The translations under genes and the position numbers were made by a program. The notes below the pieces were generated by a model. That model was not told the origin of the DNA. It did not search any database and saw nothing but the letters and a program-made list of their open reading frames with translations. Shown in pieces: positions 33,235 through 45,411 of a stretch of 61,370 bases of DNA. The DNA is from Gammaproteobacteria bacterium (GTDB lineage Bacteria; Pseudomonadota; Gammaproteobacteria; Xanthomonadales; Wenzhouxiangellaceae). The stretch lies in contig PWYW01000011.1 in assembly GCA_003567685.1 (NCBI GenBank), positions 1 through 61,370 on the forward strand, written 5' to 3'. Positions within the stretch are counted from its first letter, which is position 1, and each line of letters opens with the position of its first letter.

Positions 33235-34245
33235 TCAGTCCGAACGCCGTTCGGGCAGGGTCAATTCCGCCCTGAACCATTGCTTGTCAGCGCTCAATTT
33301 CAGATAGGCATCGTCATCGTAGGCCAGGGCCAGTCTTTGGCGAATATTGTCAAGCGCCAGAGATCCCTCTGCCGAAGACGCTCGAGCATCTGGCAGCGGA
33401 TTTTCAACCACGAATCGCCAACGGCCAAAACGCCGCCGCTCGGCACGAATTTTCAGGATGCCCGGCTTCGAGCAGCGGGCAATACCATGCACAATGGCAT
33501 TTTCCACCAGCGGCTGAATCACCAGCGCCGGTAAAGCGATGTTGCCCGGCAAATCATCGGGCAGAGACCAGTCCACTTGCAGCCGGTCACCCAGTCGAAG
33601 CGCTTCGATGCGAAGGTAGCCCCGGACCAGCTCCAGTTCATCCTCAAGCGTATGAGAGCTGGCCCCTCTCAGCGCCGTCCGCAACAGATCCGACATGTCC
33701 AGCATGGCTTGCTCGGCTTCGGCCGGCCTCTCGTGAACCAGTTCGGTGAGGGTATTCAGCGTATTGAAAAGAAAGTGCGGTGCTATCCGGGCCTGCAGGG
33801 CATCCAGCCGACGTTCGGACTCCGCCGCCTGACGGTCACGCCATTGCTGCTGGGCGGTCATGTAGAAAACCAGCAGCGAGGCGACGACGAGTCCCGCCAG
33901 GCCATTTCGAAACAGCCACCAGCCTTGAAAAGCGCCGGTCGGGGAAAACTCCGAACGCATCAAAAGAACGCTGAGCACCAGAACCAGTACAGGCAGTAAA
34001 ACGATCAGCCAAACTCTCAGGTCAAGCGCCCAGTCGGCCGGCTTGATCCGACTGACCAGCCACCAGAAAAAAATCAGGGCGCTGGCAATCCAGAGGCAGA
34101 AGAGCGCATGCAGGGCAAGCACATTCAACCAGTCCTCGGATCGCGAGGTTGCGACCAGGGAAGTCAACAGGCTGACCAGCAGTGCGAAAAAGAACAGCAG
34201 CAGCGCCCCGCGAAGCGTAAATGGCCAGTCGCCTGATGCTTGCAT
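33235..34245 (-). CDS. LytS/AlgZ-type sensor histidine kinase
   Basis: A 336-residue inner-membrane sensor kinase of the His_kinase (PF06580) type, like P. aeruginosa AlgZ/FimS. Four membrane segments lie near residues 13-31, 42-63, 79-96 and 113-130. The phosphoacceptor region is RIAPHFLFNTLNTL with His157, and the ATPase domain has PALVIQPLVENAIVHGI (about 238-254) and a late glycine-poor lid. No response regulator (AlgR-like LytTR protein) or hem gene adjoins it, unlike the usual algZ-algR arrangement. It is downstream of, and in the same direction as, the minor pilin genes, whose homologues are controlled by AlgZ/AlgR in Pseudomonas. Confidence 0.88.
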   Translation of the reverse strand: MQASGDWPFTLRGALLLFFFALLVSLLTSLVATSRSEDWLNVLALHALFCLWIASALIFFWWLVSRIKPADWALDLRVWLIVLLPVLVLVLSVLLMRSEFSPTGAFQGWWLFRNGLAGLVVASLLVFYMTAQQQWRDRQAAESERRLDALQARIAPHFLFNTLNTLTELVHERPAEAEQAMLDMSDLLRTALRGASSHTLEDELELVRGYLRIEALRLGDRLQVDWSLPDDLPGNIALPALVIQPLVENAIVHGIARCSKPGILKIRAERRRFGRWRFVVENPLPDARASSAEGSLALDNIRQRLALAYDDDAYLKLSADKQWFRAELTLPERRSD

Positions 34246-34411: not shown

Positions 34412-36934
34412 TCAGTCCTCAACCCACCATGCCAGAGGAGCAGGAACGTACGACCTTCGAGCTGCTGCCAGCGCTGATCGCTCGGATTCGGTCAACGGCG
34501 ACAAGAACCACCCATCCAGCCCCCCCGAAGCCGCCGACAAGAGCTCCATATTGCGATCCCTGCCGCCGCTGTAGCGCGACAGCGGCGCTTCATACATTAG
34601 GAACGGCCAATCATCGCGGTGCGTGCGCGCGCCACCCGCGAGGGCCCGGATGCCCTCTGGAGCAAGCCAGATGCGCGCGAGCAAATCCCAAACGTCGGCA
34701 ACAGCCAGGGGCGAGGCGGCGAGGTCCTGCTGCAATTCAGGCTGCGCGAGCATTCGCTGCTCGATCGTTGCCGGGTCAATCTTGATGGGCTGCATGGAAC
34801 CGACCAACAACAAATCCGCGCCCACAATGGTGACAGCACCATAGCTGTAGGGAAACACTTGGTTGAATGTGTGCATGACCGCCTGGAGGTTGTCGGCACT
34901 GATGTCGTAAAGCTGAATCCACTGGGCAAACACGCCGCCATCGGTCAGGGCGCGCGCGCCAAGCCGGTAAAACTCTTCCGTGAACAGACTGGCAACTCCG
35001 GCAATCCACGGGTTGGAAGGAACGGAGACAATGACGTCATACTGCGATTCAACCAGCGACAGGTAAAACCGCCCGTCGATCACGCGAATTGACACATCAG
35101 GGTTGTCATGAATGCCATGATTGACCTCGGCAAACAAGCGAGCCCCTTCGACCATTGCCGGCTCAATTTCAAGCAGGGTGACCGCATTGACCGAATCGTG
35201 CAGGGTGGCCGCACCCGCGGTCACGCCGGTTCCCATACCGACGATGGCAACCTGTTCCGGCTCGGGATGCAGCAACAGCGGCAGGTGCGCGCTGAGTTGC
35301 TGGGTGGGCATATCACCCCAGGACGAGCCATCCACCTTGCCATTGGTCGAGATGAACAAGTGACGGGGCAGACTCCAGCGCTCGCGGGAAACCGAAATGG
35401 TGGCCGTGGGCCCATCCCGGTAGAACAGCAAATCAAATTGGTCGGCAAGGTGGTCGGCCAGCTGGTCTTGCGATACGCCGGCAAAGCGTTGCGCATATTC
35501 CGAGATGCCGGCCGACATCAACTGACTATTCCAGGGCGGCGTCGACCACCAGCCGAACGAAAAAACCAGCAGCATGCCGAGGCCAGCCGACAATCGCTGC
35601 CGCACCCGGGGCAAGCGCGGCAGCGCCAGCAGCAATGCGTAGCACAGCAGCCCGATTGCCAGCACCAGGGTGGGGGGGATGCCCAAGGTGGGTATCAACC
35701 AGAGGCCGGCCAACAAGGCACCGATGACACAACCGAACGTGTTGGCCAGGTAAACCCGACTGGTCACCAGGGCGGTGTCGGGAGACTCTTCTAGCACCTG
35801 CCTGAGCAACAAGGGGAACAAGGCACCCATCAGCAGGGCGGGCATCAGGAACAGGCTGGCGGCGGTACCTGCTTGGAGCAGGAAAACACCCAGCGTTTGG
35901 CCGAGCGAGTCGGGCTCGAACGCCTGCAGAAACCAGCCGGGCACCAGCGGCAGCAGATACAAGCTCAGGAACAGCGCCAGCAAGGCAGCAAACCCGAGCA
36001 AGACGTACAACTCAACCGCGCGTGTTGGCCATCGCTTCAAAGCCGACGAGGCAAGCCATGCCCCCAGGCCTAGCCCGGCAAGGAATACACCCAACACGGC
36101 AGAAAACGCGTAAGCGCTGCCGCCGACAACCAGGACAATCGTCCGCGTCCAGGCAATCTGGCAAATCATGGAGGCCAGGCCGATGAGCGCGGACATGGCC
36201 ATCCACGGCAGTGCCGTCAGGCCGTTGCGCTCGGTTGCCGCGCGGGCAACATCTGTCAAGGCTCCGCCATCAAGCGCAGGGTTGCGCTCCCAATAGCGCG
36301 CGAGAAACCATAAGCACAGCCCCAGCAGCATGTTCACCAACCCGGCCAACCACAACAGCGGGCTCATGGCAAACGTCGGCAGCAAGACAAAACCGGCGAG
36401 GAAAACGCCGGAAACCGCGCCGACCAGGTTCAAGGTGTACCAGGAAATCACCTGGCCAGGAGGGCGCCCGGCCACGTGGACGGCAAAGCGAGCCAGCAAG
36501 GGCAAACTGGCGCCCATCACCAGCGTCGGTGGCAGCAAGAGAAGGCCACCGGCAACAACGCGGAGAATCGTCAGCGACGAGCCGTCGCTGCCCAAGACCC
36601 CTGCCACCGCCACCAGCCCAGCCGAAAGCCAGCCGATCAGCCAGGGAGTGAGCACCACCCAGGCACCCAGGCCGATTTCAAGCAATGCATAAATACCCAG
36701 TGGTCGGGCGAGCCGGTCACCCAAGCGACCGGCCAGATGGGCGCCCAGACCAAGACCGAACATGAACAGGGCCACGACCACTGCAACCGAGACGGCGTCG
36801 GAACCAAACAAGGGCACCAGCTTGCGTGCCCAGATCACCTCGTACGACAGCGCAAGCGCACCCGATACGACGATGAAGGCACCAATCAGCGCGAAGGCAG
36901 CCGCTTCTGTGAAGCGGCTGTTCAGGTCACGCAT
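34412..36934 (-). CDS. transporter-like / spermidine synthase-like fusion protein
   Basis: An 840-residue protein. Residues about 10-480 contain some fourteen membrane segments in two related halves, each opening with an Ile/Trp-Ala-Arg stretch (ALSYEVIWARKLVPLFG and ASMICQIAWTRTIVLVVGG). Residues about 530-740 form a Rossmann-type methyltransferase fold as in spermidine synthase, with IVGMGTGVTAGAA and LLEIEPAMVEGARLF. The acidic aminopropyltransferase motif is replaced by VSVPSNPWIAGVASLFTEEFY, so polyamine synthesis is doubtful. Such fused proteins are common and uncharacterised. The ATG at 36934 is preferred to the in-frame TTG 15 bases earlier. It starts 41 bases after pilE and may share its transcript. 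Confidence 0.8.
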   Translation of the reverse strand: MRDLNSRFTEAAAFALIGAFIVVSGALALSYEVIWARKLVPLFGSDAVSVAVVVALFMFGLGLGAHLAGRLGDRLARPLGIYALLEIGLGAWVVLTPWLIGWLSAGLVAVAGVLGSDGSSLTILRVVAGGLLLLPPTLVMGASLPLLARFAVHVAGRPPGQVISWYTLNLVGAVSGVFLAGFVLLPTFAMSPLLWLAGLVNMLLGLCLWFLARYWERNPALDGGALTDVARAATERNGLTALPWMAMSALIGLASMICQIAWTRTIVLVVGGSAYAFSAVLGVFLAGLGLGAWLASSALKRWPTRAVELYVLLGFAALLALFLSLYLLPLVPGWFLQAFEPDSLGQTLGVFLLQAGTAASLFLMPALLMGALFPLLLRQVLEESPDTALVTSRVYLANTFGCVIGALLAGLWLIPTLGIPPTLVLAIGLLCYALLLALPRLPRVRQRLSAGLGMLLVFSFGWWSTPPWNSQLMSAGISEYAQRFAGVSQDQLADHLADQFDLLFYRDGPTATISVSRERWSLPRHLFISTNGKVDGSSWGDMPTQQLSAHLPLLLHPEPEQVAIVGMGTGVTAGAATLHDSVNAVTLLEIEPAMVEGARLFAEVNHGIHDNPDVSIRVIDGRFYLSLVESQYDVIVSVPSNPWIAGVASLFTEEFYRLGARALTDGGVFAQWIQLYDISADNLQAVMHTFNQVFPYSYGAVTIVGADLLLVGSMQPIKIDPATIEQRMLAQPELQQDLAASPLAVADVWDLLARIWLAPEGIRALAGGARTHRDDWPFLMYEAPLSRYSGGRDRNMELLSAASGGLDGWFLSPLTESERSALAAARRSYVPAPLAWWVED

Positions 36935-36975
36935 TTGGTCAGAGACCAACGATTCGCTTTACCAACCGCCCATTG

Positions 36976-37401
36976 CTACCAGCAGTCTTCAACGGTCACG
37001 TCCGCCCCGCTGACTGTTCGTACACCTTGGTGGTTGAGAGTGAGAGTGCCGCAACGATCGTTGTTCTGGCCGCCCAGCGCCTGCGGCGTTGCGGTGATGT
37101 CAAAGGTACCTGCCGTCGCCGCAACCGTGAACTGGTAGCGTTCGCTTTCCGACAATTCCTCATTGAAGGCGGCTACCAGGCCACAGGCGTTGTAGGCATT
37201 GGCCCGCGTCCGACAGCGCTCGAAGTTCTGGGCCAGCGTATTCATCTCGGTCTGAACGGCGTTTCGATGCGATTGCTGTACGTAGCGCTGATAGCTGGGA
37301 TAGGCAATCGCGGCCAGGATGGCCACGATTGCCACAGCGATCATCAACTCGATCAGTGAAAAGCCCGGCTGGCGGGAGGCGATCTGGCTCGACGCTCTCA
37401 T
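36976..37401 (-). CDS. pilE: type IV minor pilin PilE
   Basis: A 141-residue type IV pilin-like protein that joins the priming complex at the pilus tip. The prepilin peptidase site is QPGFSLIELMIAVAIV: cleavage after the glycine at residue 13, methylated Phe14 and the conserved glutamate five positions on. A single hydrophobic helix follows. Three cysteines (CRTRANAYNAC, DRCGT) and a final EDCW suggest a disulfide-closed D-region. The ATG overlaps the pilY1 stop by 4 bases. Last gene of the minor pilin operon. Confidence 0.92.
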   Translation of the reverse strand: MRASSQIASRQPGFSLIELMIAVAIVAILAAIAYPSYQRYVQQSHRNAVQTEMNTLAQNFERCRTRANAYNACGLVAAFNEELSESERYQFTVAATAGTFDITATPQALGGQNNDRCGTLTLNHQGVRTVSGADVTVEDCW

Positions 37402-40400
37402 CGGTTTTGTCTCCAGTTCAAACGCTCGCCGAAGGCTCGGGGCAGAGCATCCTGGTCAAACTCGGGGTCATCGATATCAACCAGCGTCGAGCCGTAACTG
37501 ATGGCCGTACTGGCCTCGACATCGCCGTCAACGGTCTCCACCCGGGTAACGTAGGTCGCGGTTACCGGCGCACCTTCCTCGGAGCCAACCAGGGGTGTAA
37601 AACCCTGACCGCTCGGGAACGCACCGCTGGCTTCACGCAAGTTCATCATGTACACGTTGCTCCTGCCACCGACCTCACAGGGGTCGTCGTTCGGACGGAA
37701 GCTGGTAAACAGCAAACGGCCAAGGCGGAAATCTGGCGTAAACAGGGCGCGAGCTCCATTTTGCCCGCCGTAGTCAAGCGCGGCGTACCAGCCGTTATGG
37801 ACGAAGCCCTGGTTATTGCGCTCGAACAGATTGAACTCACCAGCCGAACCGCCGGAAATTGCAGTGCTGCGGTTGACAAGGTCGCTCTGCTTCAAACCAC
37901 TGGCTGAGGGCCCGGCTGCACCACCATCGCGAATGACGTACATGTATTCGCTGGGCGCATTCTGGATATTGTCATCGCCCAATTCAAAGTACTTGCCGGT
38001 ACCGAAGACGACGATGTAGCCGTTGCCCTCTTCCGGGTAAATGGTCTGGGGCTGCATGGTAATCGGGCGATCACCTTCGAACACGCGTTGCACGGTCACG
38101 TTGCTGCTCAAGCTCTCGCCAAGATCGAAGCGCCACAGGTTGCCGCGCAGGTCGCCGGCATAGGCCCAACGGTCTGTCGTACCGCGATTGAGTACATCGC
38201 GCGCCACCCGCGGCGCTGACAGACCGTTGTTGCCCTGGTTATTCACTTCCACGGTCTGGGCAACCGACCCGGTGAAGAGATTGATCTTCACCAGGCTGGC
38301 CCGCCCACGATCCGAGCCGTAGCCGTTTCCGGCGACCAGCGCCCAATCGCCATTTTCCAATCGGGCTACCTGGGTCGTTCCAAAGGTGAAGCCAAGGCGA
38401 TCCTCCTGGCCTGGCGGCAGATCGTCTGGCCCAATCTCCCACATGAAGGACGGATTTTCAGGGTCGGTCACGTCAAGCGCGTAAATCGATTTCCCACCGG
38501 CACCCAGGGTGCCAACCAGGATCTGGCGCCAGCGCTGGCCCGCCGGTCGAGAGGCCTGATAAGCATCGAAGAGGCTAAGGTTCCCATCCACGGTGTACTG
38601 GAAATCCCGGGTGGCCATGCGGTACAGGTTGGGAAAAACGCCTCGCGGCACGTAACCGAACAATTCCTCGCCCGTGTCAACGTCGAAGGCATGAAGTACC
38701 CCGAGGTTACTGCCCACGTAGACAACGCGGGGCAGGTCTTCCTTATTCTGGACAAACTCGGCATACACGCTGCCGCCGCCCTGGCTGGCCGGCAACTGCG
38801 CCCAACCCAGGTTGCGAACTCGCTGCAGGACGGGCGCGCTACCGGCAATCGTACCGATGCGCGCATCGCCTCGATCAAAGAAGCTGACACCCAGACCCTG
38901 CATGTTATCGAGAACATCGGCAAAACCGCCGCGTACGTAGCGAACCACGTTTTCCGCCACGGTCGCGTTCGGGTGAATGCTTTCCAGAGCTTCCTCCGAC
39001 AAGCCGCCGGCACCCAGATTGAAGGAAGAACCCGCGGTCAGCAGATTGCGCATGGCGCCGGACGGCATCTCTCCGTTGGCCCGCCAGATCTCCTGTTCGG
39101 ACGGCAGATTGGGGTTACGCAAGCCGATCATTTCACCCGACCAGTTGGATGGATCACTTTCAAACCGGAAACCGATGGCGTCATCAATCTGTACGCTGCC
39201 ACTCACCTGCGAGCCGACTTCAATCTCGGAGTCGGCGATGATCTGCTGGAACAGATTATTCATTGCGGCTTGAAGAGAGTCTCGGTCATCCGCCATCAGC
39301 GCCTGGTCGGTACGTCCGGCGGTAGCCAGCACGTCCAGCGGATCGGCAGGCATATTCGGCAAATTGTCCACGCCCGGCGGCAGGGCAAATCCAACGATGT
39401 AGGTGCGCACACCCTCTCCCAATGCTTCCTCAGTGTCCTCATACAGATCGCTGATGGCGTCGCGGGCCTCAAGAAGCGCCGCAGCCGGGTTGTCGCCAAG
39501 GAGTGTGCCATCCGCCCTGACCGTAGGCAGCCCATCGGTGATCCAAATGTTGGCGTTGATACCGCAGGACGTGGGAAGCGGTGGCACGTCCTCGTTCCAG
39601 CCCTGGTCTGCACCAAAACTGGCTGTGGCATCCCCACCCGCATTGATGAAATAGTCGGTAGCAGTCCGCATCGTGCCATCAAGCGGGGTCAAGCCAGACG
39701 CAATCAGCGGCCAGCTTGGATCGACCAGAACATTACCGTCACCGTCCTCCCAGTCATGCCGCTGGGGCTGCAATTTGGCAACCAGAGCATCCCAATGAAC
39801 GTTATCTTCCTGGAGGTTGCCAGTATTGCCTCGAATAGGAACGTGTAGATAGCCAAGGCCAGGCGAAGTATTACTCCGCCATTCGAGCTGATTCAGCTGC
39901 GTGAACAGTATTCTGTCGCCCCATTCAGGGATGCCTCGCTGACGCATGCTGTCTGTCCGGGTGATCCTCCAGAACTGATTTGCATTTTGGTAGCGGTTGC
40001 TGAACCAAAAGCCACTGTCAGCGTCCTGTTGCCTGTCGCCAGCACCCGGCTGGGAAATGTGCATGTTTCTGAACAACCAATGCGCTTTGTCGCCCGTTCC
40101 GAAAAACAATCCACTCCACAACGCGAAGGTGGTTAGATCTGACTCAGGGGTCCCGAAGTCCTCATCACGATGGTAGCCAGGTGCTGCAAAATTGTAGAAA
40201 ACCCACATGCCATCGACAAAAGGATGCGGCTCACGGAACCGCTTGGTATTTGAGGTCAAGCTGCCGGTGAAATTGGGATCGTAAAAGGGCGGATTCGGAG
40301 TGGTGGCAAATCTGACATCACCCGGACGGTGAACCAACCGCCATAGCACGGTACCTGGCCCCGTGTCTTGAGAGTCTGGACTGGCAAATACGTCATTCCG

Positions 40401-40820
40401 CCAAGGACTTGGGGGGTTCTGCTGGTAAGAAAGCAGGCCCATATTGACCAGTCCCCGATAGTTTTCAATCAGGTCAAGCCCAACCCCTTTCACAATGCTC
40501 GCCTTGCTGAAAGGCGACCGGGCACCCGCTGGGCATTCGTCCGGGTCCATGTCGGGTCCTGGCACACAATTATCCCAGTCAAGGGCAACGCGACCCAGGC
40601 TAAGACCTTCCTGCATACTCTCCGACGTATCGGGAATCAGCAAAATGTTCGGCTGGAAGCTGCTGACGGCCAGCGTCAACGGGCGCTCGGCGATCTGGGT
40701 GGCGGCCAGGTTGGTCGTGCCGGTCAGCCAGGCGAACGAGGCAAACGCGAGGATGATCGCGGGCCGCAAGCGACCAAACGGCTTGCGCAACACAGGCAGG
40801 TTTTCGGGAGTGGTTTTCAT
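37398..40820 (-). CDS. pilY1: type IV pilus tip adhesin/assembly protein PilY1
   Basis: A large (1140-residue) secreted factor located at the pilus tip that controls pilus extension, adhesion and surface sensing. A signal-like segment is near residues 18-40. An N-terminal von Willebrand A-type domain starts with the metal-site motif DTSESMQ at 64-70. The C-terminal third is the PilY1 beta-propeller with the calcium-loop-like DVDTGEELFGYVPRG and the typical YALDVTDPENPSFMWEIG. The ATG at 40820 follows GGAG at proper spacing and is chosen over an in-frame start 57 bases upstream. Length is close to P. aeruginosa PilY1 (about 1160). Confidence 0.94.
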   Translation of the reverse strand: MKTTPENLPVLRKPFGRLRPAIILAFASFAWLTGTTNLAATQIAERPLTLAVSSFQPNILLIPDTSESMQEGLSLGRVALDWDNCVPGPDMDPDECPAGARSPFSKASIVKGVGLDLIENYRGLVNMGLLSYQQNPPSPWRNDVFASPDSQDTGPGTVLWRLVHRPGDVRFATTPNPPFYDPNFTGSLTSNTKRFREPHPFVDGMWVFYNFAAPGYHRDEDFGTPESDLTTFALWSGLFFGTGDKAHWLFRNMHISQPGAGDRQQDADSGFWFSNRYQNANQFWRITRTDSMRQRGIPEWGDRILFTQLNQLEWRSNTSPGLGYLHVPIRGNTGNLQEDNVHWDALVAKLQPQRHDWEDGDGNVLVDPSWPLIASGLTPLDGTMRTATDYFINAGGDATASFGADQGWNEDVPPLPTSCGINANIWITDGLPTVRADGTLLGDNPAAALLEARDAISDLYEDTEEALGEGVRTYIVGFALPPGVDNLPNMPADPLDVLATAGRTDQALMADDRDSLQAAMNNLFQQIIADSEIEVGSQVSGSVQIDDAIGFRFESDPSNWSGEMIGLRNPNLPSEQEIWRANGEMPSGAMRNLLTAGSSFNLGAGGLSEEALESIHPNATVAENVVRYVRGGFADVLDNMQGLGVSFFDRGDARIGTIAGSAPVLQRVRNLGWAQLPASQGGGSVYAEFVQNKEDLPRVVYVGSNLGVLHAFDVDTGEELFGYVPRGVFPNLYRMATRDFQYTVDGNLSLFDAYQASRPAGQRWRQILVGTLGAGGKSIYALDVTDPENPSFMWEIGPDDLPPGQEDRLGFTFGTTQVARLENGDWALVAGNGYGSDRGRASLVKINLFTGSVAQTVEVNNQGNNGLSAPRVARDVLNRGTTDRWAYAGDLRGNLWRFDLGESLSSNVTVQRVFEGDRPITMQPQTIYPEEGNGYIVVFGTGKYFELGDDNIQNAPSEYMYVIRDGGAAGPSASGLKQSDLVNRSTAISGGSAGEFNLFERNNQGFVHNGWYAALDYGGQNGARALFTPDFRLGRLLFTSFRPNDDPCEVGGRSNVYMMNLREASGAFPSGQGFTPLVGSEEGAPVTATYVTRVETVDGDVEASTAISYGSTLVDIDDPEFDQDALPRAFGERLNWRQNR

Positions 40821-40880
40821 GGCAGGGTCTCCAGCCAATGGCAATTTTTGAGTCGTATTGAAAAAAATCATGAGCATCCG

Positions 40881-41549
40881 CTACGGGCTAGGCGGCGTGG
40901 GCGGCGGCGAGGTCAGCGCCGCCGCATCCGGCCCCAGGTACATCGCCTGGACCAGTACGAACGACGTGCCGTCAGGCGCTCTGCCTTCGGCAAAAAACAA
41001 TCGCGTTTTATCGCCCTCGGTTCCCGATACGTTCGACCCGGTGGTTCCGCTGACGGTCGACGACGCGGTAATCCCCGATGGTGGCGTGCAACGCCCCATC
41101 TGCGCCTCATTGATCAACACCGTGTAGCGGGCACGCGACTGGCCCGGCTCGTTATCCGGGGTAGAAATGATCCACTGCGCACCGCCAGCTGTAATGGCTT
41201 CAACGCAGGCCGGCGACGCCGACACCGATGCCGCGCTGCAGGACAGCGTCTCCAGATCCGGGCAGGCCGCAGGCCAACTGGTCAGTTCGTCCACGTTGAA
41301 CGTGAGCGGCGGCGCACTGCCCTGCCTGAGTGCCTGGCTGTAGTCGCGCTCGGCGGTTCGAAGCGCCAGCTCGGCCAACTGGAAGGCTTGCTGTCGCTGG
41401 TCGAAATTGCCGGCCATCCGTTCCTGCAAGCCGGTATCCCGCATGGCGGCTAGGCCCAGCAGGGTGAGCACCAGCAGGAATATGAGAGAAATGATCAGGG
41501 CCGAGCCTGATGTTCGCTGCGCGGTCAATGGGTTGCTGTGCATGATCAA
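40881..41549 (-). CDS. pilX: type IV minor pilin PilX
   Basis: A 222-residue minor pilin. Unlike the others it lacks the GFSLIE motif; the N-terminus reads QRTSGSALIISLIFLLVLTLLGLAAM (only a hydrophobic helix after a short basic leader), which is how PilX proteins look. The following region QERMAGNFDQRQQAFQLAELALRTAE is the conserved PilX coil. A Ser/Thr-rich middle and a Pro-rich end follow. It overlaps pilW by ATGA and ends 60 bases before pilY1. Confidence 0.88.
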   Translation of the reverse strand: MIMHSNPLTAQRTSGSALIISLIFLLVLTLLGLAAMRDTGLQERMAGNFDQRQQAFQLAELALRTAERDYSQALRQGSAPPLTFNVDELTSWPAACPDLETLSCSAASVSASPACVEAITAGGAQWIISTPDNEPGQSRARYTVLINEAQMGRCTPPSGITASSTVSGTTGSNVSGTEGDKTRLFFAEGRAPDGTSFVLVQAMYLGPDAAALTSPPPTPPSP

Positions 41550-42697
41550 TTCACCGTGATGGCATTTCGGATGGCAACGGTGTTCGTGTACAGCTGCCGG
41601 ACACGACGATCGTTGATCTCGAACTCAAGGCCATTGTCGAGCACCAGGGTTTGCTGCAGCTGGCGAGAGTCGACCTGCTCGGGGGATCCCACGATCAGGT
41701 GCATGGCGACACCGCGCACATCCGCCCAGCCTGAACCGGAAGGCAAACTATCGGCGGCATACAAGTTGGTATCGCCTGCCACGCGATAGAACAACTGGAG
41801 GCTTTCGACGCCTTCAACCAGCTCTTCGACCTGGCACCCATCGCCCGGGCAGTTCGATGCCCGGTAAAGTGCCCGGCGCTCGTCATCCGAGGCACTGGCA
41901 GCGACGAAGTAATACAGAGAGGTCGGCCGGTGCAGCTCCATGTCGCTGCCGTAAACCGTGAGCCACTCACCGCCCGTCTTCTTGTTGCCCGACCCATTCG
42001 AGCAAACTAGCGTGTCGGCCTTTTGTTTTGCCGTATTGATGCAGACATCCATGAAACCCTGCTGGCAATCGACAACGGCAAAGGGCTGACCCTGGCCTAC
42101 ACCATGATCGGCTGACTTCGAAGCATCAGGTGGTTCACAGGTTTGCAGGCTTGTACTGGTTGTGTTGTTGTTCTTCGAGGGACAGCCCGTCACGTTAGCC
42201 GCCGGGTCGGAGGTGCGAATACCCAGCACGTCTGAATCGGGAAGCGCAGGGTTGTCGAAATCCAGAAGGAAGCCCGGGAGTCCCGAGCTGCCGTCCGACC
42301 AGTTACCTGTCGTGGCAGCGGTATCCGCTGGGTCGAAGGTCACCGTGTCATTATTTCCTGTACCGGTGAATTCCCAGCCCCGGATTCCGATATCGAACCC
42401 CAGCAGCTCGCCAATTCCTCCGGCAGCCGGGTCAACCCACACCTTGGTCTGCAATGGCTGGGTGCCGCCGCAGATGGCCCCCGACCCGGCCATGCGGATA
42501 TCGCGATTCATGACTTCCAGCGCGAAGCGCGCATTCTCTTGCACTCTCGCCAGCCCGGATGTGACGGTATAGGTCACTCTTGTGCCGATGAACAGCTGGA
42601 TCACGGCAGCCACGACCAGCAGGCCGAGGACCAGGGCAATCATCAGTTCAATCAACGACAGGCCTTGCTGGCCGGAACGATTGGAAAAACGTTTCAT
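41546..42697 (-). CDS. pilW: type IV minor pilin PilW
   Basis: A 383-residue minor pilin of the PilW class. The leader peptide ends at QQGLSLIELMIALVLGLLVVA (cleavage after the glycine at about residue 12), followed by IRMAGSG, the usual PilW signature near residue 58. Several cysteine pairs (CGGTQPLQTKV, CPSKNN, CEPP, CQQGFMDVC) suggest disulfides. The ATG at 42697 overlaps the pilV stop (TGATG); a GTG three bases upstream is the alternative start. Confidence 0.92.
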   Translation of the reverse strand: MKRFSNRSGQQGLSLIELMIALVLGLLVVAAVIQLFIGTRVTYTVTSGLARVQENARFALEVMNRDIRMAGSGAICGGTQPLQTKVWVDPAAGGIGELLGFDIGIRGWEFTGTGNNDTVTFDPADTAATTGNWSDGSSGLPGFLLDFDNPALPDSDVLGIRTSDPAANVTGCPSKNNNTTSTSLQTCEPPDASKSADHGVGQGQPFAVVDCQQGFMDVCINTAKQKADTLVCSNGSGNKKTGGEWLTVYGSDMELHRPTSLYYFVAASASDDERRALYRASNCPGDGCQVEELVEGVESLQLFYRVAGDTNLYAADSLPSGSGWADVRGVAMHLIVGSPEQVDSRQLQQTLVLDNGLEFEINDRRVRQLYTNTVAIRNAITVN

Positions 42698-43146
42698 CAC
42701 AACAGGCGTCCTCTCACTCGAACGGCATTGGCGCCGACATCAAAATCCGGCGTGTTGCCGGCGTCCAGGTCAAGCTGCAGCGCTTCATCCACCCAGCTGA
42801 CGGTAACGATGATGTCCCCGCTCTGGATAGCCATCGCCAGGGTGAAGTTTGACGGGAACCGATCCGCGTAGCGTGCAGCCAGGGCAGTCTGAATGGGGTC
42901 TCGCACGGAGGCCGGTACGGTGCCGCCCTGGATCACCCGGCCGTCAAGCGACAACCTTGCCTGCTCGAGTGCGTCATAGGCAATGACCGACGCGAGGGTA
43001 TGGTGGTGCGAACCCTGCGAATTCTGGATGGCGATGCCTTGCATGGCGACCACGCCCAGCAGGCCAACGGCAACCACGACCAGGGCGATCATCACTTCCA
43101 GCAAGGAAGCGCCTTGCTGCCTGTTAAGTTGATTTAGAGGTTTCAT
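42697..43146 (-). CDS. pilV: type IV minor pilin PilV
   Basis: A 149-residue minor pilin. The prepilin motif is QQGASLLEVMIALVVVAVGLLG, with alanine rather than phenylalanine at position +1, a common PilV variant. The conserved QGIAIQNSQGSHHHTLASVIAYDALEQAR follows the helix. The ATG at 43146 overlaps the fimT stop (ATGA); the longer in-frame stretch upstream is within fimT. It supplies one of the core minor pilins that start pilus assembly with PilW, PilX and PilE. Confidence 0.92.
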   Translation of the reverse strand: MKPLNQLNRQQGASLLEVMIALVVVAVGLLGVVAMQGIAIQNSQGSHHHTLASVIAYDALEQARLSLDGRVIQGGTVPASVRDPIQTALAARYADRFPSNFTLAMAIQSGDIIVTVSWVDEALQLDLDAGNTPDFDVGANAVRVRGRLL

Positions 43147-43688
43147 TCGCATCCACCGGTTGGCTGAACCACCTGGGCTCGTCCTGAGCGCCCCAGAATC
43201 ACTTCGCGACGAAAGGGCCTGCCCGCTGGACAATCAACCGGCTGCAATTCCAGAACGAACGTAAAGTCGGTGCCGCCAACGGCCACGTTGCCAAGCGGCA
43301 GGAAATCCACATGGTTGTCCGAGGCGGTGTCATCCAGGTCCTGGCCCAGGGCGATGGCCGAGGACAGTGGCTCCCAAACGCGCAAAATCTCTCCTTCACC
43401 CGGCCCTTCCTGCAGGCGGATGACCAGACCGCCCCCCCAATCATCATCACCGGAACAGTCGGTGAATGCGGCGTTGGCCGGGCACAGACGAACGATTGCC
43501 GATCGGGCTACCGCCTCGCTCCGTGCATAGGCCATGGCAGTGACCAGGCTGTTGGCAGCGCCACTGACCCGGTTGTTGTTGATCACCGACCGAAAATTCG
43601 GTACGGCCACCGTCAGCAGGATCGCCAGTACGGCGATCGTGATCATTAGCTCAACGATCGTGACGCCTGCCGCTCGGCTAGCGTTCAT
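43143..43688 (-). CDS. fimT: type IV minor pilin FimT/FimU (GspH-like)
   Basis: A 181-residue minor pilin with the GspH/FimT domain. The leader is very short, MNASRAAG, cleaved before VTIVELMITIAVLAILLTVA. The FRSVINNNRVSGAANSLVTAMAYARSEAV region (about 32-60) is typical of FimT/FimU. Cysteines at CPANAAFTDC and later CPAG are conserved in the group; some FimT proteins bind DNA for uptake, which is not predictable here. The ATG at 43688 has only a weak ribosome-binding site. First gene of the operon; a perfect AlgR-type site lies 119 bases upstream. Confidence 0.9.
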   Translation of the reverse strand: MNASRAAGVTIVELMITIAVLAILLTVAVPNFRSVINNNRVSGAANSLVTAMAYARSEAVARSAIVRLCPANAAFTDCSGDDDWGGGLVIRLQEGPGEGEILRVWEPLSSAIALGQDLDDTASDNHVDFLPLGNVAVGGTDFTFVLELQPVDCPAGRPFRREVILGRSGRAQVVQPTGGCE

Positions 43689-43806
43689 CGCTGACTGTTT
43701 TTTCGGTAGTGAGGCCACGGACGTCCCTGATGTTTTCTCGCACCATAAAGTATCTACAAGTCTGGCGACAGAGCCCAGCCTTTTCCGATGGACGGCCGAA
43801 TCCGGC

Positions 43807-43816
43807 GACGAACGGT
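43807..43816 (-). promoter_or_regulatory. AlgR-type binding site upstream of the pilin operon
   Basis: The minus strand reads ACCGTTCGTC, identical to the AlgR binding sequence known from the P. aeruginosa algD promoter. It lies 119 bases upstream of fimT on the same strand, the position expected for activation of the minor pilin operon, which AlgR controls in Pseudomonas. It is also 48 bases upstream of the divergent gamma-glutamyltransferase-like gene. Confidence 0.6.
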
Positions 43817-43863: not shown

Positions 43864-45411
43864 ATGCCCCAGCTTTTTCGCCTGGCCAGTGGCCACCCTG
43901 AAACCAGCCGTGCGGCTGAAGCGATTCTGCAAGCCGATGGCAATGCGGCCGATGCCGCCATTGCCGGAGCCCTGGCAGCCAGCGTGGCTGAACCACTGCT
44001 GTGTTCCCTGGGGGGCGGCGCGCACGGGCTGATCCAGCGCGAGGGTCGGGCGCCGGTGGCGCTTGATGCCTTTGCCCAGACTCCCCGGCAGCGCCAGCCG
44101 GGCGAACTGGATTTTTTCCCCATCCTTGGCAACTTCGGCACGGATGTGCAGGAATTTCATGTCGGCATGGCCTCCATTGCCACGCCCGGCGTCATTGCCG
44201 GTCTGTTTGCCCTGCACGAACGCTTCGGGCGCACGCCATGGCCGGTGCTGGTTCAGCCGGCTGTTCGCCTGGCGCGACAAGGCGTCCGCCTGAATCCGAC
44301 CCAGGCCTTTGCCAACCGCATCCTCGAACCGATTGTTCGCAGCACAGCCGAGTGCGCCGCCTTTTTCGGCCTGGCTCAGCGTGATGACCGCTTGCCGCCG
44401 GAAGGCAGCCTGCGCTGCAGCCCGGCCCAGGCCGATTTCATCGAGGCGCTGGCCAGCGAGGGCCCGGCACTTTTCTACCAGGGCGAGCCCGCCCGTCACC
44501 TGGCAGAGGCCTGCATGCAGCGCGGCGGTCATCTGAGGCTGAAAGATCTGTCTGGCTACCGGCCACGCTGGCGCCGGCCTTTGCGCTGGCAATACCGGAG
44601 CGCCACGCTGTGGTCAACACCTCCGCCGGCGTTCGGCGGCATGATGCTCAGCCTGGCCTGCCAGCGTCTCGAGCATCATCTGGTGCCCGGCATACCGGTC
44701 GACTCACCGGACTTTCTTGCCGCATTGTGCCAGGCCATGGAAGAGTCCGAAAGCTTGCGCAGCCAGCTTGAGCAAAGCGAGCTTCTGGCTTCGGAATCCG
44801 CCCTGCGCGCCGCTTTCCGGGGGCTTGACCTGTCCACCCGAATCAGCCAGCGCGGCACCACCCACATCAGCATTGATGACGGCAAGGGGATGTCGGTTGC
44901 GCTGACGCTTTCCAATGGAGAAGCGTCCGGTTACGTGCTGCCGGGTACCGGCATCTTGCTGAACAATATGCTTGGCGAAGAGGACATCAATCGAGGCGGC
45001 TTCCATGCCTGGCCCAGGAACCGCCGACTGGCCTCGATGATGGCACCCACCTTCGTTCAACAGGGCCGTCAACGATGGATTCTGGGCAGCGGCGGCTCGA
45101 ACCGAATCCGTACAGCCCTGGCCCAGGTCATCAGCCGGCTGGTGGATTTCCGGCAGCCGCTGGCGCGCGCAGTCGAGGCGCCACGCGCCCACCTCGAACG
45201 CGGTTTGCTGTCGATTGAAATGCCAGCCGGTGAGTGGCCAGCGGCAAGTCGCGACTGGCTGTTCCGGCATCACCACGATGCCCGTTGCTGGCCTGAACGG
45301 AACATGTACTTTGGTGGCGTGCAGGCCGTGGGCCCGGGCGATGCCGTAGCCGATTCGCGTCGCGATGGCTTGGCACTGGATGGCCAGAAATCCCGCCAGG
45401 GCCCGACATGA
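43864..45411 (+). CDS. gamma-glutamyltransferase family protein
   Basis: A 515-residue Ntn hydrolase of the gamma-glutamyltranspeptidase family, cleaving gamma-glutamyl bonds such as in glutathione. The start of the large subunit is recognisable as LASGHPETSRAAEAILQADG with DAAIAGALAASVAEP and SLGGG. The autocleavage site and nucleophile are RGTTHISIDDG, with Thr332 (first T of TTH). The small subunit keeps PGTGILLNNMLG and GSGGSNRI. No signal peptide precedes the fold, so the enzyme would be cytosolic, unlike secreted E. coli Ggt. The ATG at 43864 lacks a good ribosome-binding site. Substrate is unknown. Confidence 0.85.
   Translation: MPQLFRLASGHPETSRAAEAILQADGNAADAAIAGALAASVAEPLLCSLGGGAHGLIQREGRAPVALDAFAQTPRQRQPGELDFFPILGNFGTDVQEFHVGMASIATPGVIAGLFALHERFGRTPWPVLVQPAVRLARQGVRLNPTQAFANRILEPIVRSTAECAAFFGLAQRDDRLPPEGSLRCSPAQADFIEALASEGPALFYQGEPARHLAEACMQRGGHLRLKDLSGYRPRWRRPLRWQYRSATLWSTPPPAFGGMMLSLACQRLEHHLVPGIPVDSPDFLAALCQAMEESESLRSQLEQSELLASESALRAAFRGLDLSTRISQRGTTHISIDDGKGMSVALTLSNGEASGYVLPGTGILLNNMLGEEDINRGGFHAWPRNRRLASMMAPTFVQQGRQRWILGSGGSNRIRTALAQVISRLVDFRQPLARAVEAPRAHLERGLLSIEMPAGEWPAASRDWLFRHHHDARCWPERNMYFGGVQAVGPGDAVADSRRDGLALDGQKSRQGPT

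Follow-up and report, generated by a model that had tools for sequence, protein, structure and literature searches.

An AlgR-type tandem operator upstream of fimT-pilVWXY1E in the Wenzhouxiangellaceae and its probable role in a minor-pilin control circuit

The closest described counterpart of the locus reported here is found in Pseudomonas aeruginosa, where AlgR activates the fimU operon from two binding sites that precede the gene, and where AlgZ and AlgR are both needed for fimU expression (excerpts of PMC4064291 and PMC8787478). Marko et al. proposed that FimS (AlgZ) monitors the level of minor pilins in the inner membrane and raises expression of the operon when that level falls (excerpt of PMC5979040). 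With this AlgZ(FimS)/AlgR-fimU-pilVWXY1Y2E system our locus shares the AlgR boxes upstream of a minor-pilin operon and the families of the kinase and the regulator, and algR is next to hemC here as it is in Pseudomonas loci. The arrangement differs in that algZ adjoins algR in Pseudomonas, whereas here algZ lies at the pilin operon and algR lies by hemC. The excerpt of PMC4064291 describes AlgR sites singly, as 9-mers, and gives fimU sites (CCGTTTGGC and CCCTCGGGC) that are farther from the consensus than the perfect core found in our locus. Titles and abstract openings, for the most part of papers outside subscription, yielded no description of algZ in a pilin operon or of a tandem AlgR operator, so either may already be published.

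AgrA-type LytTR operators also consist of two direct repeats upstream of a promoter, although the letters of the repeats differ from those found here, which are CCGYTNRTC-like. PilS and PilR, which belong to other kinase and regulator families than AlgZ and AlgR, act on the major pilin, whereas minor pilins are concerned here. The feature common to PilS/PilR control of PilA and the present case would be a kinase that monitors its pilin and resets expression, a likeness drawn for FimS in the excerpt of PMC5979040.

We analyzed a stretch of 61,370 nucleotides, hereafter the window, from a gammaproteobacterium of the Wenzhouxiangellaceae (GCA_003567685.1, contig PWYW01000011.1), which carries a minor-pilin cluster on the minus strand (Table 1). 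The first-pass annotation of this DNA had reported an AlgR box, ACCGTTCGTC, on the strand of fimT and 119 bases before the gene, and its position, strand and distance were all correct. Two features were absent from that annotation: the box is one half of a direct repeat, and in relatives the kinase gene is part of the controlled locus. The core of the box, CCGTTCGTC, matches exactly the AlgR core consensus as given in the excerpt of PMC4064291, and is followed in the fimT promoter by a weaker repeat with two mismatches. The resulting pair, CCGTTCGTC-N11-CCGTCCATC, spans 43787-43815 with a period of 20 bp; its 11-bp spacer, which is 12 bp in most relatives, is shared with Pseudoalteromonas and two Rheinheimera sites.

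Table 1. Features of the minor-pilin locus in the window, in window coordinates.
Feature	Position	Strand	Remarks
algZ/fimS-like kinase	33235..34245	-	PF06580; the genome's only PF06580 match
Spermidine-synthase-domain protein	34412..36949	-	PF01564; between pilE and algZ in the window genome
pilE	36976..37401	-	PF16732, N_methyl
pilY1	37398..40877	-	PF05567
pilX	40881..41549	-	PF14341
pilW	41546..42700	-	PF16074
pilV-like minor pilin	42697..43152	-	N_methyl only; named pilV by position
fimT, leading minor pilin	43143..43688	-	PF12019, N_methyl; prepilin start (MNASRAAGVTIVELM) at 43688
Alternative -10, TACTTT	43747..43752	-	34 bp past second repeat
Possible -10, TAGATA	43751..43756	-	30 bp past second repeat; putative
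Second, weaker repeat, CCGTCCATC	43787..43795	-	After the spacer
Reported box, ACCGTTCGTC	43807..43816	-	The 9-bp core, CCGTTCGTC (43807-43815), forms the upstream operator repeat
Gamma-glutamyltranspeptidase	43864..45411	+	PF01019; divergent neighbor

One alternative is that an intergenic stretch happens to contain the 10-mer by chance. The annotation had put a chance match at well under one in a thousand, a figure that ignores the freedom with which the motif was chosen and that we could not uphold. The window holds a single exact match to ACCGTTCGTC and three matches with at most one mismatch, against 3.84 expected, and the exact 10-mer occurs nine times in the 2.74-Mb genome, against 19 occurrences of its reversed control. 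Enrichment of the exact 10-mer, absent in genome and window, was thus discarded as evidence, and for a reader free to choose both site and motif the bare match is not beyond chance. Since an exact match alone proves little, the case for the box rests on conservation. When scored as a pair, the window site is the best N11 site of the genome, with two mismatches; six other sites have three, giving a total of seven against 12 for the control. When the 220 bp before fimT were dinucleotide-shuffled 500 times, the score of the window pair was never reached. A further box near the algR gene (C24:30699) was rejected as a regulatory site because it lies inside an ORF that we take to be dapF-like and not in a promoter.

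Conservation in relatives was the annotation's own suggested check, and on this point the box held up. FimT was matched in 29 of the 30 genus genomes, often as diverged paralogs, and 18 minor-pilin operons were obtained with the leading gene in hand, of which 17 were assessable after G027, with only 84 bp upstream, had been left out. A paired box, defined by a mismatch sum to CCGTTCGTC of at most 5 and a spacer of 11-12 bp on the coding strand within 220 bp, was found in 15 of these 17 operons, comprising 14 scored at the cut-off and that of G021, recognized by eye. The G021 pair, CCGCCTGTC-N12-CCGCCCGTC, lies before pilE with a sum of 5 and was identified post hoc; the cluster's three scored starts, the first of which is an upstream fimT, have sums of 7, 7 and 8, and counting G021 from that fimT (score 7) makes the total 14/17 instead of 15/17. 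Across the 15 operons the layout is that of a LytTR-type direct repeat, two 9-bp units separated by 11-12 bp and recurring at a period of about 21 bp. Over the 14 scored operons, between 0 and 42 of 500 shuffles reached the observed score, and only 3 of 34 stretches upstream of internal pilin genes scored 5 or less (excluded were the three rows of G021 and the leading row of G027, which is short).

The pair was not found in two of the 17 operons, that of G035, a genome without a close AlgR or a full AlgZ match, and that of G029, which has AlgR and no full AlgZ match. In G035 the fimT match (L070, G035:C1:245800-246291) contains an internal TGA, and the circuit has possibly been lost there. G024, which is 73% complete, has AlgZ and the paired box without a close AlgR match. 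AlgR without an AlgZ match was seen in G023, G002, G006, G005 and others, and many of the genus genomes are incomplete; in such genomes AlgR may serve a function unrelated to the pilus, or algZ may fall in an assembly gap. In G030 the promoter region contains two pairs of AlgR-like repeats, the second of which (L078, G030:C442:9468-9497) is 262 bp farther upstream.

We scanned the 30 genus genomes with a degenerate pattern, CCRYTNRTC-N12-CCGYYNRTC, that had been derived from promoters already seen, so that the match in G012:C74 alone was new. The scan returned 23 matches, 13 of them upstream of minor-pilin operons (12 operons, that of G030 twice) and 10 elsewhere. Nine of these 10 lie inside open frames of at least 120 aa and one between frames, by a mechanical test under which the window's own box also falls inside open frames. 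The raw count in the genus is not enriched, as the reversed pattern gives more matches (91 versus 23), indicating that the signal of the pattern is one of location only.

A second regularity, noticed by eye on the genus alignment and assigned its exact limits later, concerns the distance to the -10 element. Of 27 paired sites in and outside the genus, 21 have the hexamer TANNNT at a distance of 31-33 bp past the second repeat; the 27 comprise 14 genus sites, four from G101, G104, G084 and G066, and nine from named genomes. The rule fits 11 of the 13 first genus sites and 10 of the 14 sites added afterwards. Among the other 3-bp intervals tabulated, 29-31 holds 6 sites and 32-34 holds 17 (both overlap 31-33), 38-40 holds 5, and the rest hold 0 to 2. 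Pairs from Chitiniphilus (at -269), Rhodocyclaceae and Endobugula passed the shuffles and were excluded from this count. A fixed -10 distance implies that the repeats would sit just upstream of the -35 region, and the tandem operator together with this distance provides a searchable definition of AlgR target promoters that goes beyond a single loose 9-mer.

The sites that miss the rule are those of the window, G024, G101, Stutzerimonas and Pseudomonas daroniae and one of two Dyella sites. In the window, transcription of fimT is predicted to start at about 43744. The window operator is irregular, having a perfect first repeat, a weaker second repeat, the shorter spacer and no TANNNT at 31-33 bp, and coincidence can draw on this irregularity of second repeat and -10 as well as on the unenriched 10-mer. 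Same-strand pairs at a similar distance in nearly all of the assessable genus operons, together with the fixed -10 spacing, argue the other way, and because conservation speaks so strongly against it we regard coincidence as highly improbable. We conclude that the box is, very probably, a genuine regulatory site controlling the genes for assembly of the type IV pilus tip.

It could also be that the operator is real and serves mainly the divergent gamma-glutamyltranspeptidase gene, or both genes. This gene starts on the opposite strand 48 bp beyond the box, and of 25 stretches searched in relatives, those of G034 and G021 also carry a homolog upstream of the pilins. The 23 other stretches have no homolog, although several end too early to show one, and the paired box follows the pilin operon, with repeats and -10 facing the pilins in relatives. 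We consider it very improbable that this gene is the principal or a joint target, and it is probably not part of the pilin unit. A homolog of the spermidine-synthase-domain protein is encoded divergently upstream of fimT in G031 and G022 (L068 7747-9498; L076 31-2028), the same neighbor in another place.

Outside the genus, upstream stretches were scored in 21 loci of named genomes, and 12 of 29 had a score that no more than 10 of 300 shuffles reached; about one such stretch is expected. The passing stretches include those of Stutzerimonas, Pseudomonas daroniae, Dyella, Rhodanobacter, Rheinheimera and Pseudoalteromonas. No convincing pair was present in the remaining 17 (more than 10 of 300 shuffles); these include both or all rows from Pseudomonas NFR16, Pseudomonas LS-2, Dyella tabacisoli, Halothiobacillus, Caenimonas, Comamonadaceae and two gammaproteobacterial MAGs, as well as a stretch from a Rhodanobacteraceae MAG that just missed, at 11 of 300. 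A search of locus L196 found no pilin. In Rheinheimera and Pseudoalteromonas the minor-pilin genes directly follow algZ-algR, and in a Halothiobacillus MAG algZ-algR is divergent to them, so the link between algZ-algR and minor pilins recurs in gene order.

We then considered the regulator and kinase of the window genome. A single LytTR match exists in the whole genome, on contig C24, whereas the window is C56; it is a protein of 244 aa, encoded at L021 7777-8511, with receiver (PF00072) and LytTR (PF04397) domains and 40% identity to three Pseudomonas AlgR. Downstream of its gene comes hemC, an order shared with four Pseudomonas loci, and then what is presumably a hemD-like ORF; the preceding gene, which we take to encode an alpha/beta-hydrolase-like protein, is not algZ. 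The phospho-acceptor Asp56 and the R-x-H-R core are invariant across 11 aligned regulator sequences, and the excerpt of PMC4227749 gives the LytTR motif as FhRhHRS. No AlgR-named model was among the 25 NCBIfam matches listed for this protein, the best being BtsR at 131 of 246 bits, far below the cut-off; because no curated model names it, we call it AlgR on account of its similarity and its hemC neighbor.

The annotation had placed an AlgZ-like kinase 10 kb downstream, and such a kinase is present there, scoring 81 bits against PF06580; the regulator gene is not beside it and lies by hemC on the other contig. The kinase gene is followed by a small gene that we take to be rpmE-like and has no LytTR gene beside it. 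The AlgZ alignment (A1) detects relatives in Rheinheimera pacifica (35% identical, residues 6-332) and a Pseudomonas sp. (37%, residues 38-317), each followed by AlgR, and an NCBIfam search with the window kinase matched no model. The algZ-algR adjacency is thus not kept in the window genome while the algR-hemC order is, and in G022, a relative assembled as a single contig, algZ and algR are about 2 Mb apart. Since the genome has a single PF06580 and a single LytTR protein, the two are its only candidate AlgZ-AlgR pair.

The genus AlgZ alignment was also used to retrieve loci from named genomes, and in 76 of the best 80 an AlgR-like regulator lies downstream, on the same strand and no more than about 0.9 kb away; this set reaches distant phyla and may lack close relatives of the window. 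AlgZ was matched at 1e-25 or better in 58 of the 61 genomes of a sample spanning the order, and the best AlgZ row was compared with the best AlgR row in 57 of them, the 58th (G035) having a partial match only. Among the matches listed, algZ adjoins algR on the same strand in 47/57 and is split from it in 10/57. No minor-pilin operon was found near the 47 adjoining genes (tblastn at 1e-4, up to about 10 kb on each side, some cut by contig ends), one locus showing a lone weak PilE match about 8.5 kb off, and hemC was in the fetched stretch in 38 of the 47. Six of the 10 split genes lie downstream of a pilin cluster (five in the genus and one in G101, of the same family), and three (G104, G084 and G066, of another family) are head-to-head with fimT. 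One further split algZ (L215, G015:C1:4299470-4300441) has neither algR nor minor pilins recognized nearby. In all five split genomes whose algR region was read, algR is beside hemC. Within the genus, algZ is downstream of the last recognized pilin gene on the same strand in 12/12 genomes with a full-length AlgZ match, and algZ fragments lie downstream of pilins at contig ends in G001 and G031.

Taken together, we assign a probability of roughly 0.8 to the reading that an AlgR operator before fimT-pilVWXY1E is bound by AlgR and activated via AlgZ as a stock-keeping loop for minor pilins. The box would be the upstream one of two tandem repeats recognized by the single AlgR-like LytTR regulator; once phosphorylated, AlgR would occupy both repeats, immediately ahead of the -35 region, and switch on the operon, and AlgZ would phosphorylate AlgR when minor pilins become scarce, as proposed for FimS. 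Because algZ sits with the genes under its control, the sensor and the sensed parts would be coupled in expression. In relatives algZ follows pilE by a few hundred bases, and its predicted co-transcription with the pilins is less sure in the window, where a 2.5-kb spermidine-synthase-domain gene separates the two. The annotation had predicted a surface-sensing or pilus-control circuit, and while its chance argument fails, the conserved operator, the single AlgZ-like kinase and the single LytTR regulator support a circuit of pilus control, for which surface sensing would be a putative function. Sequence comparison provides good support for the view that the AlgZR-fimU circuit known from P. aeruginosa recurs here in a different lineage.

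A real operator would also be compatible with phosphorylation of AlgR by some other kinase, or with activity of the unphosphorylated protein, in which case the position of AlgZ would reflect something else. P. aeruginosa AlgR works unphosphorylated at algC and algD (excerpt of PMC8787478), and AlgR occurs with no AlgZ match in several genomes of the genus. As the window genome encodes a single protein of each family, PF06580 and LytTR, and as AlgZ adjoins AlgR in most of the order-wide sample (among the matches listed), we consider such a route improbable and favor AlgZ as the partner of AlgR.

That algZ lies at the pilin genes agrees with the role proposed in the literature for AlgZ/FimS as a monitor of minor pilins, and gene order, independently of P. 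aeruginosa genetics, points at minor pilins as its signal. We tentatively suggest, at somewhat less than even odds, that algZ left algR for the minor-pilin operon, downstream or head-to-head, since minor pilins are its signal; operator, pilins and kinase would then form one self-tuning feedback module, with algR staying by hemC as a general-purpose regulator. In an AlgZ tree in which G024 and G030 are absent, all 11 proteins of the downstream type group in a single clade, and the three of the head-to-head type in a second. A union of both clades is not rejected (p-AU 0.473, with G073 dropped as the longest branch), so one relocation and two are indistinguishable. Five genus genomes, two of them incomplete, have no PilY1 match (G021, G033, G011, G024 and G001), and in these same genomes algZ lies with a pilin cluster and follows the pilins (as a fragment in G001), suggesting that minor pilins rather than PilY1 may be the input of AlgZ. 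In G033 a 718-aa PilX-like protein is encoded before algZ. A second type of minor-pilin cluster was also observed in the genus (L081 6506-8662, in G033; L082, L083, L084 and in part L080), in which pilE comes first and algZ follows; it goes with the lack of a detectable PilY1 in the genome, and in G021 more pilins lie upstream of pilE.
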